From Candidatus Saccharimonadota bacterium (lineage in GTDB: Bacteria > Patescibacteriota > Saccharimonadia > Saccharimonadales > Saccharimonadaceae): a DNA stretch of 64,000 nucleotides. Positions 4,134-45,777 of this stretch are shown here, piece by piece (the stretch's first letter is position 1; the number at the start of each line of letters is the position of its first letter). The notes beneath the pieces were generated by a model. It saw only the letters and a list, made by a program, of their open reading frames with translations, did no database searches and was not told the origin of the DNA. Made by a program: the position numbers and the translations under genes. The DNA lies in NCBI GenBank assembly GCA_017511205.1, contig JAFWLE010000002.1:124001-188000 (forward strand). The letters are read 5' to 3'.

Positions 4134-4161
4134 ATTATAGCATAAGCTATTTTTAATTCAA
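4134..4161 (-). promoter_or_regulatory. Promoter of the 2843-4102 gene
   Basis: On the minus strand a TTGAAT -35 (4156-4161) and a TATAAT -10 (4134-4139) are separated by 16 nt. The transcript would have a short leader carrying the AGGAG of the gene. Confidence 0.65.
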
Positions 4162-4178
4162 TATAAAAAAATTACCCA

Positions 4179-4379
4179 TTGCATAATTCATCCATATTGA
4201 AGGATATAAAGGCAAAATCTCTGACCGCTAGGAGGAGAGAAATAGGAAAGCTTGCTTTCCTATTTCATGACGACGCAGCGGTCAGCCGAAGACAGATTTT
4301 GCCGTCGCAAGGGCGGAGCAATGTGGTAAAATTTTTTTACCACATTGCGGAGATCCTGAAATATGGATGAATTATGCAA
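4179..4379. repeat. Intergenic cloverleaf repeat, copy 1 (with nested hairpin)
   Basis: 201-nt member of a four-copy intergenic family (others at 11279, 44216 and 45643). The ends are inverted: TTGCATAATTCATCCATATT on the left pairs with its complement on the right. Inside are a GGCAAAATCT/AGATTTTGCC stem, a GC-rich segment (gtcgcaagggcgg) that forms a clean stem in other copies, and a CAATGTGGTAA/TTACCACATTG stem. Only this copy carries about 70 extra nt in the first inner loop. The insert itself folds as CTGACCGCT/AGCGGTCAG capped by AATAGGAAAGC/GCTTTCCTATT. It lies between divergent genes, and its right arm abuts the enolase promoter. Confidence 0.85.
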
Positions 4380-11248: not shown

Positions 11249-11278
11249 CCACAAGTTCGTGCAAAAATAATAAAAAAC

Positions 11279-11425
11279 GGCGTTGTTCCATAATTCATTC
11301 ATATCGAAGGATATAAAGGCAAAATCTATGATTTTGCCGCCGCAAGGGCGGAGCGACGTGGTAAAATCTCTAGATTACCACGTTGCGGAGTTCCTGAGAT
11401 ATGATATGAATTATGAAACAACGCC
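11279..11425. repeat. Intergenic cloverleaf repeat, copy 2
   Basis: 147-nt element between the rpsG end and the gap promoter. Inverted ends: GGCGTTGTTCCATAATTCAT pairs with ATGAATTATGAAACAACGCC. Inner stems: GGCAAAATC/GATTTTGCC, CCGC/GCGG with an AAGG loop, and ACGTGGTAA/TTACCACGT. An AGGA/TCCT pair lies inside the outer stem. It could terminate or process the rpsL-rpsG transcript, but no T-run supports a classical terminator. Confidence 0.85.
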
Positions 11426-18925: not shown

Positions 18926-18931
18926 ATTATA
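18926..18931 (-). promoter_or_regulatory. -10 box of recG
   Basis: TATAAT 8 nt before the recG ATG. It overlaps the last codons of trmD. Confidence 0.6.
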
Positions 18932-19703
18932 ACACATGCCCAGAGTGTTCTTCGCGCCACTTATCTACTTCACCATGGTTGCCAGAAAGTAAAACATCTG
19001 GCACCTTCATCCCGCGAAAGTCATATGGTTTTGTATATTGCGGATATTCAATATTGTCTCCATCCGAAAAAGACTCAATCTCAGCTGAGGTTTCCCCACC
19101 TAGTACTCCAGGAATTAAGCGCACTACAGAATCAATAATGATTAGAGCCGGTAGTTCCCCACCAGTTAGCACATATTTTCCTAGCGAGATCTTGTAATCC
19201 ACGATCGACAAAATTCTCTCATCGTACCCCTCGTAATGTGGGCAAAGAATAATATAGTGCATATCGCAAGGCAATTGGGAATGCTCTTCTCGAGGGCTTC
19301 CGGAGGTTACGACCGAGGTATGAGGGGCGCTCCGCCCGTGACGACGGGCCGGAGCGACCCCGTCCCGAGAGAAGAGCGTTCCTAATTGCCCCCGTGACAT
19401 TGCTCTGGCCATTTCTTGATTCCAGATTTCACCTGCAGGGGTAGGTAGAATCACTTTGGCGGTCGGATCTTTTGCTTTGACTGATTCGATAGCGTTAAAT
19501 ACTGGCTCGCATCTAAGTAGCATCCCATCTCCGCCTCCATAAGGTGTATCGTCCACCGATTTATGCGGCCCTAGCCCAAAATCCCGTAAGTTCACAAAAT
19601 TAAACTCTGCTAGACCTTTTTCGGTAGCTTTCCACATCATCGAAGTCTTTAAATATGGTTCCAAAGCCTCTTGAAATAGAGTAATTATCGTAAACTTGAT
19701 CAT
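18927..19703 (-). CDS. trmD: tRNA (guanine37-N1)-methyltransferase with in-frame palindromic insert
   Basis: SPOUT methyltransferase making m1G37 in tRNA. Conserved parts are MIKFTIITLF at the N-terminus, DDTPYGGGDGMLL, HYEGYDERI and GKYVLTGGELPALIIID. The usual Gly before HYEG is Pro here. Between WNQEMARAMSRGQLG and MHYIILCPHYEG, where relatives have only a short loop, sit about 36 extra residues encoded by a 121-nt hairpin (19270-19390). The insert is Arg/Ser/Pro-rich and probably exposed or disordered. Total 258 residues. Whether the enzyme tolerates it by looping it out is inference. Confidence 0.92.
   Translation of the reverse strand: MIKFTIITLFQEALEPYLKTSMMWKATEKGLAEFNFVNLRDFGLGPHKSVDDTPYGGGDGMLLRCEPVFNAIESVKAKDPTAKVILPTPAGEIWNQEMARAMSRGQLGTLFSRDGVAPARRHGRSAPHTSVVTSGSPREEHSQLPCDMHYIILCPHYEGYDERILSIVDYKISLGKYVLTGGELPALIIIDSVVRLIPGVLGGETSAEIESFSDGDNIEYPQYTKPYDFRGMKVPDVLLSGNHGEVDKWREEHSGHVL
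19270..19390. repeat. In-gene palindromic element, family A, in trmD
   Basis: Outer arms GGCAATTGGGAATGCTCTTC and the complement of GGCAATTAGGAACGCTCTTC close a long stem. The core read on the plus strand has GGAGGTTACGACCGAGGT, then GGGGCGCTCCG, CCCGTGACGACGGG and CGGAGCGACCCC. The core is nearly identical to the one in alaS, with a paired T/A to G/C change in the GCTCCG/CGGAGC stem. The arms are unlike those in alaS. Confidence 0.88.
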
Positions 19704-19744: not shown

Positions 19745-19773
19745 TTGACAGAATTATTTTTATGCTTTATTAT
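19745..19773 (+). promoter_or_regulatory. Consensus promoter of the 19780 RNA
   Basis: TTGACA (19745-19750), a 17-nt spacer and TATTAT (19768-19773): one of the best -35/-10 pairs in the window. No open frame with a ribosome binding site follows. Confidence 0.75.
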
Positions 19774-19779
19774 TGGTCT

Positions 19780-19926
19780 AAGCTGGTACGCTTCACAGGG
19801 GTTCCACTGATTAAATTAGTGGAGTGTGGAGACTCATTAAAACAAACAGCGGATCAAAACAAAACAATGTGCCCCAGGGTGGGCGCGCATCAGCGCAAGA
19901 GGATGGCCGTCAAGGCCATCTCTTTT
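19780..19926 (+). ncRNA. Putative stand-alone structured RNA
   Basis: About 147 nt between a consensus promoter and an intrinsic terminator. Predicted structure: GTCT/AGAC enclosing an AAGC/GCTT hairpin, a CAC/GTG pair and a TCCACTGAT/ATTAGTGGA stem. An A-rich single-stranded linker with CAAAACAAAACAA follows, then a GTGCCC/GGGCGC hairpin, GCGC/GCGC, and the terminator. It does not match tmRNA, RNase P, SRP or 6S motifs that I can recognise. obgE downstream has its own -10, so this is unlikely to be just its leader. Confidence 0.55.
19897..19924 (+). terminator. Terminator of the 19780 RNA
   Basis: AAGAGGATGGCC and GGCCATCTCTT pair around GTCAA with one bulged G. The stem runs into TCTTTTAT. 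Confidence 0.7.
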
Positions 19927-19945
19927 ATAATGCTGATGATTATGG

Positions 19946-19951
19946 TATAAT
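19946..19951 (+). promoter_or_regulatory. -10 box of obgE
   Basis: TATAAT 6 nt before the ATG at 19958, implying a leaderless obgE message. Confidence 0.65.
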
Positions 19952-19954
19952 TAG

Positions 19955-21358
<1,404 letters not shown>

Positions 21359-43665: not shown

Positions 43666-44211
43666 ATGAGTACACAAAAAGACTGGGATGAATACTTTAT
43701 GAGCATCGCTGAGGCGGTAGCCGAAAAATCAAAAGACCCATCATCCAAAATGGGTTGCGTAATTGTAGATAATAATAAACGTATTATTGCGACCGGCTAT
43801 AACGGTTTATTACAAGGCGCCGATGAGTCCAAAATGACTCTTAGCGAGCGCCCGATGAAATACTATTTTGCCATTCACTCCGAGATGAATGCCGTGCTCT
43901 TCGCGCATCAAGATTTGACTGGTTGCACTATTTATAATAGAGTAGCAACTTGTGAAAACTGTCTCAAATACTGCCTACAGGCTGGTATCAAAAGGTTTGT
44001 CTATAAAGAATTACGCGTGCATTCACATTCTACTGATCCGAAGAAATCGATGACCAATATCGATACAGATGAAGCCGTAGTAAGACTTCTTGCTTCCATG
44101 CCAGAGATTAAAACTTTGAATTTATCAAACGGTAAAACCTACACACAAGACATTCTCGATTCATACGAAAAAGATTCTGCCGAGTATGCTAGACTGGCCA
44201 AGTGGGTTTAG
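43666..44211 (+). CDS. dCMP/cytidine deaminase family protein (ComEB-like)
   Basis: 181 residues, zinc-dependent deaminase probably converting dCMP to dUMP for dTTP synthesis. Visible are the N-terminal WDEYFMSIAEAVAEKSKDPSSKMGCVIVD, the metal/catalytic HSEMNAVLFA (His and Glu) and ATCENCLKYC with two Cys ligands (the family usually has PCxxC). tmk is 0.8 kb away, fitting pyrimidine nucleotide supply. The start is set by TATAAT 6 nt upstream. It is followed by cloverleaf repeat copy 3. Confidence 0.9.
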   Translation: MSTQKDWDEYFMSIAEAVAEKSKDPSSKMGCVIVDNNKRIIATGYNGLLQGADESKMTLSERPMKYYFAIHSEMNAVLFAHQDLTGCTIYNRVATCENCLKYCLQAGIKRFVYKELRVHSHSTDPKKSMTNIDTDEAVVRLLASMPEIKTLNLSNGKTYTQDILDSYEKDSAEYARLAKWV

Positions 44212-44215
44212 TAAT

Positions 44216-44352
44216 ACTGAATAATTTATTCATATCGAAGGATATAAAGGCAAAATCTATGATTTTGCCGCCGCAAGGGCGGAGCGACGTGGTATAATCG
44301 TCAGATTACCACGTCGCGGAGCTCCTGAGATATGAATGAATTATTCAACAGT
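44216..44352. repeat. Intergenic cloverleaf repeat, copy 3
   Basis: 137 nt between convergent genes. Ends TGAATAATT...ATTCATATC pair with GATATGAATGAATTATTCA. Inner stems GGCAAAATC/GATTTTGCC, CCGC/GCGG and CGACGTGGTA/TTACCACGTCG, then GGAGCTCC. Nearly identical internally to copy 2, while the outer arms differ. Confidence 0.85.
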
Positions 44353-45046: not shown

Positions 45047-45652
45047 ATGTATATTGTAATCGAAGGCCAGGATGGCACTGGTAAATCCACTCAAGCCGAA
45101 CTACTCAAAAAATATTTCGAATCAAAAGGAAAAACCGTCGTGATGCTCGAAGAGCCGGATGGCGATTTGCCACAAGCTCACGACCTGCACGATATGATTC
45201 TGACGCGGGGGTACGATTTAGAGCCATTAACTAATGTATTATTATTCACTGCAGCGCGCGTTGAACTTTGGAAAAAAATTGCCGAGCCGGTTCTAAAAAA
45301 GGGTGGCATAGTAATTTCCTCACGCAATTACTGGTCCACGTTAGCTTACCAAGGCTACGGCGAAGGTATTTCACGTAGTAAAATCATTAGACTTACCAAA
45401 GAATTGCTACCAGACAAATATGTTCATCCAGACTATGGCTTTATTCTAACAGTATCTGACAAAGAGCGTTTGAAGCGCCAAAAAACTCGTGGCAAAGCCA
45501 CCGAAACCTTTGAAAAAAAGCCGAGCGAATTCCAACAAAAGGTCGACGCCGCCTATCCGAAAATTGCCAAAGAGTTTAATTTGAAGCTAGTCGACGCTTC
45601 CGGCACAATCGAAGATATCTTCACTAAAATCAAAAAGGAACTCGTTGCATAA
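45047..45652 (+). CDS. tmk: Thymidylate kinase
   Basis: 201-residue dTMP kinase. P-loop IEGQDGTGKSTQAELL, the DRx-like SSRNYWSTLAYQG block and the LID region KERLKRQKTRGKATETFE are visible. Somewhat diverged from standard Tmk (EEPDGD in place of the usual TREPGG). The last codons and the TAA stop (45650-45652) are supplied by the left arm of cloverleaf repeat copy 4. Confidence 0.92.
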   Translation: MYIVIEGQDGTGKSTQAELLKKYFESKGKTVVMLEEPDGDLPQAHDLHDMILTRGYDLEPLTNVLLFTAARVELWKKIAEPVLKKGGIVISSRNYWSTLAYQGYGEGISRSKIIRLTKELLPDKYVHPDYGFILTVSDKERLKRQKTRGKATETFEKKPSEFQQKVDAAYPKIAKEFNLKLVDASGTIEDIFTKIKKELVA

Positions 45653-45777
45653 TTCATCAATATCGAAGGACATAAAGAAAAAATCTCCGATTTTTTCGCC
45701 GAAGGGGCGGAGCGACGTGGTAAAATCTTTAGATTACCACGTCGCGGAGCTCCTGAGATATGATGAATTATGCAACG
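45643..45777. repeat. Intergenic cloverleaf repeat, copy 4
   Basis: 135 nt. Ends CGTTGCATAATTCATC and GATGAATTATGCAACG are perfect complements. The first inner stem has changed to AAAAATC/GATTTTT on both sides compared with GGCAAAATC/GATTTTGCC in copies 1-3, a compensatory change. The CGACGTGGTAA/TTACCACGTCG stem is kept. It encodes the tmk stop and ends 2 nt before the stop of the convergent ABC gene. Confidence 0.87.

Follow-up and report, generated by a model that had tools for sequence, protein, structure and literature searches.

Several conserved bacterial non-coding RNAs, such as OLE, raiA, and GOLLD, were brought to light by comparative genomics, and their role was obscure or was found late. 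L15 of RNase P (GGU) and the T-box bulge (UGGN) both pair with tRNA 3' ends, and Hfq is the usual binder of A-R-N repeats.

The locus discussed here lies in a window of 64,000 nt, which is the whole stretch of DNA that was analysed; all coordinates are positions in this window, and the RNA is on its plus strand. Judged from its sequence, the locus is rather likely to be a stand-alone gene for a structured non-coding RNA, which would represent a new RNA class of the Candidatus Saccharibacteria order and act in trans through single strands that bind a partner. The novelty lies in a class of RNA without a relative in Rfam 15, and the claim concerns this class, not its mechanism.

The locus and its putative transcript

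Between positions 19745 and 19926, a promoter is followed by a folded core of about 115 nt (19780–19894) and an intrinsic terminator. The locus and the two adjacent genes comprise the following features:

18927–19703, minus strand: trmD, taken from the ORF list and named by inspection
19745–19773, plus strand: sigma-70-type promoter with −35 TTGACA (19745–19750), −10 TATTAT (19768–19773) and a spacer of 17; 11/12 matches
19780–19926, plus strand: putative primary transcript of about 147 nt, starting about 7 nt past the −10 element and ending in the T tail; both ends placed from the sequence and a promoter/terminator scan
19898–19926, plus strand: intrinsic terminator hairpin and T tail, with a terminator-like stem at 19901–19921, from fold and scan
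19958–21358, plus strand: obgE, taken from the ORF list and named by inspection

The start region of the RNA reads AAGCTGG at 19780. A preliminary description had assigned an RNA to 19780–19926, with a consensus promoter and an intrinsic terminator; the coordinates are correct, and both signals are present. Taken alone, the promoter/terminator scan is weak evidence. Four promoter-like sites were returned for the two strands of a 501-base segment, compared with 1.4 ± 1.2 in shuffles, and one terminator in the segment, compared with 0.5 ± 0.6. Conservation of the signals is strong evidence and is treated below. The predicted fold of 19776–19930 has an energy of −53.8 kcal/mol (z = −3.9), to which the terminator contributes a part, and none of 200 shuffles was equally stable.

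Distribution

Of the 36 genus genomes, the source genome included, a DNA search detected the RNA in 34, with one match being partial. The two genomes without a match are 84% and 86% complete. The genus counts use 29 of 30 loci, as L020 is broken at a contig end and was left out. The 29 aligned copies show a mean column identity of 87%; TrmD and ObgE encoded on the same contigs mostly share about 60–80% amino-acid identity.

At E ≤ 0.1, the covariance model R1, built from the genus, matches 122 of the 246 genomes of the order and, among those listed, 75 of the 76 genomes of the own family. From the 122 matches, 60 distant loci were picked by hand and not at random. L191 escaped the core finder, leaving 59 of the 60 in use, and was added to the counts of motifs and to those over 76 copies; alignment A3 comprises 54 of the loci. 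The wider model R2 matches 187 of the 246 order genomes at E ≤ 0.01, where about 2.5 are expected by chance and up to 54 of the 187 supplied the model itself. The remaining 59 genomes gave no R2 match at this threshold. A single match was found in 186 of the 187 genomes, and three were found in G266.

A phylum-wide draw of 379 genomes yielded 34 with a match at E ≤ 0.1, namely 30 of the 32 within the order and 4 of the 347 outside it. The four out-of-order matches (E 0.03–0.09) lack GGTGGGC on either strand and were taken as false. A 22-nt exact match in G055 was taken as chance: the other parts of the RNA are missing nearby, and R2 run without filters gave 5.4 bits. The RNA seems to be confined to one order of the phylum.

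A pattern scan of named genomes returned at least 118 stretches, and 52 of the 80 that were listed carry the title Candidatus Saccharibacteria. R1 scored 54 of these 80 at 45 bits or more, with the next best at 19.6. Since 52 of the 54 high-scoring records are Candidatus Saccharibacteria, the RNA family belongs to the Saccharibacteria. The other two are Candidatus Nomurabacteria records (L107:683–798 and L111:1–65), which may reflect mislabelled bins, contamination or transfer.

Conserved signals and coding potential

All 29 genus copies have a promoter-like site (at least 9/12) upstream, a feature found at 1% of random positions, and 27 of the 29 have a hairpin and T run within 75 nt downstream, compared with 13% of random positions. 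Across the order, the same 9/12 rule finds a promoter-like site at only 33 of 59 loci (random positions 2.9%), and a terminator-like hairpin with a T run lies within 75 nt of the core in 50 of 59 (random positions 18.6%). The RNA thus has conserved promoter and terminator signals of its own, as an independent transcript would, in the genus as well as across the order.

Two mechanical ORFs, of 69 and 47 aa, overlap the RNA. The core varies between 109 and 123 nt in the 29 genus copies, and these lengths are distributed over the residues modulo 3 as 14, 10 and 5. As all three residues are represented, there is no conserved reading frame, and a short coding gene was ruled out. This agrees with the absence of a coding signal noted in the preliminary description.

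Architecture of the RNA

The folded core is composed of two helices and the segments between them:

19782–19791, plus strand: P1 5' strand, GCTGGTACGC, pairing with 19885–19894; covariation order-wide, limited in the genus
19792–19830, plus strand: loop hairpin TTCAC/GTGGA plus TTCCACTGA/TTAGTGGAG, enclosing the GGGG bulge; own genus and related genus g32
19798–19801, plus strand: P2 5' strand, GGGG, pairing with CCCC at 19872–19875
19837–19868, plus strand: A-rich loop with AAAACAAACA and AAAACAAAAC segments, carrying the motif A[AC]A[CT]AAA in nearly all copies
19872–19875, plus strand: P2 3' strand, CCCC; covariation in the genus and order-wide
19877–19884, plus strand: J2/1, the GGGTGGGC element
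19885–19894, plus strand: P1 3' strand, GCGCATCAGC, pairing with 19782–19791; covariation

Over 76 copies, the core measures 72–121 nt and consists of P1 with about 10 pairs, a short 5' joint, P2, the A-rich loop, the P2 partner strand, GGUGGGC, and the second strand of P1, after which the terminator-like hairpin follows. P2 comprises 3–10 pairs, mostly 5–8. The loop hairpin is an add-on to the loop in the own and the related genus: it is also present in the g32 loci L059–L061, L232, and L233, and is missing from the short forms.

Among the 60 loci found by model R1, GGUGGGC is present in all 60, GGGUGGGC (GGGTGGGC as DNA) in 55, and the A-rich motif in 59. The occurrence of GGTGGGC in 76 of 76 copies is partly a product of construction, because the core finder required the motif, and R1 itself weighs it; both models favour this same motif. 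The motif A[AC]A[CT]AAA, which was picked post hoc, occurs at least once in 75 of the 76 copies and at least twice in 58, compared with 13.7% and 0.3% of mononucleotide-shuffled loops. In the divergent copies L276 and L277, P1 is wholly different, and GGGUGGGC and the A-rich loop are retained.

Covariation and competing folds

The complementary forms of P2 across the order include GGGG/CCCC, GCGGCG/CGCCGC, GGCTCTTT/AAAGAGCC, GGGAC/GTCCC, GGGTTT/AAACCC, and GGCGCG/CGCGCC. Swapping 3' strands among 57 short-form sequences, with kinship ignored, reached the observed pairing score in none of 300 trials for P1 and in none of 300 for P2. Pair 4 of P1 is GC in 46, CG in 27 and AT in one of 74 sequences, without a mismatch; this table leaves out L276 and L277, both of which belong to the set of 76. 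Pair 5 is non-standard in 37 of the 74, and pairs 1, 2, 3, and 7 are so in 10, 13, 5, and 7, respectively.

Within the genus, the end pair of P2 (xGGG/CCCx') is G-C in 23, A-U in four and C-G in two of the 29 copies, and the P1 pair 9–123 is non-standard in 23 of the 29. For the genus alone, two of five covariation measures are no better than shuffles (228 of 500 shuffles reach them), and RNAalifold reports one compensated pair. Within the genus, whose copies hardly differ, covariation is weak. The compensatory change that characterises structured non-coding RNA is thus found order-wide in P1 and P2 and is weaker in the genus alone. The preliminary description had proposed a structured RNA with several stems and an A-rich linker, and had named covariation in related genomes as a check. 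The stems are borne out by the fold and the order-wide covariation of P1 and P2, the linker is located at about 19837–19868, and the check itself is positive across the order and weak within the genus.

In the minimum free energy folds of 73 sequences, three or more P2 pairs form in only 39, and five or more P1 pairs in 51. Enforcing P2, as opposed to penalising it, changes the energy by a mean of −0.3 ± 3.2 kcal/mol over the 73 sequences. P2 and its rival fold lie within 3 kcal/mol of each other in 49 of the 73; a difference of more than 3 kcal/mol favours P2 in 14 and the rival in 10. The competing fold consists of a local 5' hairpin, H5, and a local 3' hairpin, H3. For H5, one of 300 swaps reached the observed score, which is modest support with kinship ignored. 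For H3 (GUGCCC/GGGCGC), 254 of 300 swaps did so; the swap test is uninformative here because one strand hardly varies, and a separate 3' hairpin was set aside as unsupported. According to these energies, a two-state fold of the RNA is possible.

The pattern of drifting helices and long, constant single strands, together with a terminator carrying a U tail, would also suit an antisense sRNA acting in trans, with the A-rich loop or GGGUGGGC as the stretch that pairs with mRNAs or rRNA. This alternative is unlikely on several grounds. Hfq (PF17209) was found in none of 24 genomes, compared with 5 of 14 controls. Furthermore, the A-rich element carries little targeting information, and order-wide constancy of both strands would be unusual for an sRNA that pairs with mRNAs.

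Neighbouring genes

The preliminary description had located the RNA between trmD and obgE, which holds for the source genome and fails as a general rule. One of these genes lies within 1.5 kb in 26 of the 29 genus loci, with 14 side and strand patterns over four scored genes. The commonest pattern, in which the RNA follows obgE on the same strand, accounts for 13 of the 29, and the arrangement in the window (trmD upstream on the minus strand, obgE downstream on the plus strand) for two. A constant association with one downstream gene set, as expected for a cis-acting leader or riboswitch, was not found among these 29 loci.

Directly upstream of obgE, the window contains a separate promoter-like site (19924–19958) with an extended −10 (TATAAT) and 10/12 matches. 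It ends 6 nt before the ATG, which suggests that the obgE mRNA would be leaderless. A leader of obgE was ruled out by the varying neighbours and by this site immediately before the start codon.

In the 59 distant loci, tRNA-Ala(GGC) lies near the RNA in 31, and in 27 it is on the same strand no more than 200 nt downstream. The fetched flanks contain any tRNA in 33 loci and no tRNA in 26. The linkage is specific, as 31 of the 33 tRNA-bearing loci have tRNA-Ala(GGC), which in some of them precedes Phe and Gly tRNAs, or a Val tRNA. The tRNA-Ala near the RNA ends in CUCCACCA; in L200 and L213 it is convergent to the RNA.

This linkage would also suit a cis-acting attenuator or riboswitch, which would sense a ligand or a tRNA and control the gene past the terminator, ancestrally tRNA-Ala(GGC). 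The frequent position of this tRNA directly downstream, the terminator-like hairpin after the core in 50 of the 59 loci, and two competing folds of similar energy are what such an element would show. However, the downstream genes vary, with 14 different arrangements over both strands among the genus loci and 26 of the 59 distant loci devoid of a tRNA in their flanks, the tRNA is convergent in two loci, and obgE in the window has the promoter-like site described above. Control in cis is thus a rather poor candidate, ranked after antisense pairing.

A further reading places the tRNA in trans. GGUGGG is able to pair with the tRNA-Ala 3' end UCCACC through five Watson-Crick pairs and one G.U; this G.U falls on the base of the alanine G3.U70 pair. 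The RNA might sense or handle tRNA in this way, and its two near-isoenergetic folds, P1 with P2 or the two local hairpins, might be the states of a trans-acting switch that reports uncharged or damaged tRNA 3' ends; neither Ffh nor Hfq was detected in these bacteria. By estimate, a constant 5-mer would fit the tRNA-Ala end by chance in a few per cent of cases, before other possible targets are considered, so that the complementarity is only a lead. The proposal is speculative and stands somewhat below control in cis.

Other repeats in the window

Two families of repeats were observed elsewhere in the window. The first is a palindromic DNA element with the core CCCGTGACGACGGGCCGG at 19335, 20310, 31206, and 54488, inside the ORFs of trmD, obgE, alaS, and queA (named by inspection). 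The four matches in the window have at most three mismatches, three of them being exact, where 0.00 are expected. At the site of the element, 9 of 16 trmD and 13 of 19 obgE relatives that cover it show at least 15 gap columns, and a similar-looking insert is present in some other relatives (L009, L019, L021). The element resembles the Rickettsia palindromic elements; nothing on such an element in Saccharibacteria was found in the open-access literature.

The second family occupies 4160–4332, 11267–11405, 44198–44336, and 45626–45764. It comprises three copies of a 137-nt repeat and one further copy that is partial; two of the three share 82% and 85% identity with the first. Where examined, the copies lie between ORFs or at ORF ends.

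Known RNA families and protein partners

The preliminary description had called the RNA uncharacterised and had recognised no known family. An Rfam 15 search of the whole window supports this, as the only match over cut-off is a tRNA elsewhere and none lies at the locus. At E ≤ 10, four sub-threshold matches cover the RNA, the best with 19.1 bits against a cut-off of 50. The same search on 20 distant loci gave 20 matches, every one a tRNA. The family match that the preliminary description had named as a refutation was thus looked for and not obtained. No description of this RNA was found in the open-access literature, covering for some queries the top-ranked part of the results. Passages of PMC8040213, PMC10633639, and PMC10768705 contain no description of it, and the sought terms do not occur in PMC11665869.

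A divergent RNase P RNA or tmRNA was considered and rejected. Both are encoded elsewhere in the genome: a class A RNase P RNA (rnpB) at G000:C3:14515–14853 (E 6.7e-75) and a tmRNA (ssrA) at G000:C3:10499–10852. RNase P RNA is present in 21 of 24 genomes, and tmRNA is over cut-off in 21 of 24. Neither the RF00010 model (E ≤ 10) nor the RF00023 model matches at the RNA locus.

No 6S RNA over cut-off was found in 24 genomes, which leaves room for a strongly diverged 6S RNA with RNA polymerase as its partner, and the size fits a small RNA. Only 4 of 14 controls were over cut-off in this search. Such an identity is very improbable: RF00013 does not match at E ≤ 10, the core of 72–121 nt compares with a 6S model of 187 positions, and the conserved part is the GGGUGGGC strand and the A-rich loop, not a symmetric promoter-like bubble. 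In addition, one relative has a separate 6S-like sequence beside rnpB. This sequence (L274:1064–1217, minus strand), some 400 nt away from rnpB, reaches 32.4 bits where the cut-off is 46.4, and is possibly a divergent 6S RNA. For the genome from which the window derives (L275), no such sequence was listed in the 1.2-kb surroundings of rnpB.

The slot for SRP RNA looks empty (SRP RNA in 0 of 12 genomes, 11 of 14 controls), but this RNA as its replacement or its relic is scarcely credible. RF00169 has no match at the locus at E ≤ 10. A search for the Ffh M domain (PF02978) detected it in all 14 controls but in none of 24 relatives and none of 145 phylum genomes, so that an RNA seemingly limited to one order does not track the loss of SRP and is not a hidden SRP RNA. 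Independently of this RNA, the whole phylum seems to lack SRP, given these counts for Ffh and for SRP RNA.

In summary of these comparisons, the RNA is not a leader of obgE or trmD and does not belong to the RNase P RNA, tmRNA or SRP RNA families.

Proposed role

The explanation preferred here is a stand-alone RNA gene with a function in trans. The RNA would be transcribed from its own promoter, end at the intrinsic terminator, and fold into the P1–P2 structure, and the folded molecule would then act in trans. Since promoter and terminator travel with the RNA while its neighbours vary, an action in trans is probable. The A-rich loop and the GGGUGGGC strand are candidate recognition surfaces, since both single strands remain constant and the helices, by contrast, drift through compensatory changes; their partner would most likely be a protein, in a housekeeping or regulatory RNP, or else a common RNA. 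On the conservation pattern, the RNA is most likely the RNA component of an RNP or a trans-acting regulator.

Saccharibacteria are genome-poor parasites, and about three out of four order genomes examined keep this RNA, usually as a single copy, in an order where neither SRP nor Hfq was found. Thus, the RNA is likely to be important there. With two helices, two constant single strands and one locus, it also presents a defined target. Natural transformation in laboratory Saccharibacteria is described in PMC10633639.

Comparison with known systems

Small, stand-alone form and a closing stem with a large loop are shared with 6S RNA, from which the RNA differs in size and in its conserved parts, in addition to the missing RF00013 match at E ≤ 10. 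The A-rich repeat and the terminator U tail are reminiscent of Hfq-type sRNAs. In contrast to these, the RNA occurs in genomes in which Hfq was not found (0/24), and its core is more conserved and more structured than is usual for such sRNAs.

Similar to RNase P RNA and T-box leaders, the constant GGUGG of this RNA could pair with the tRNA 3' end CCACC. However, neither family matches at E ≤ 10, and the RNA is far smaller than RNase P RNA.

OLE, raiA, and GOLLD, which were compared through Rfam only, resemble this RNA in being lineage-wide, strongly structured and apparently transcribed on their own. The RNA of the window differs from this type in having no Rfam 15 match, in its small core of 72–121 nt, and in its occurrence in seemingly one order of ultrasmall bacteria.
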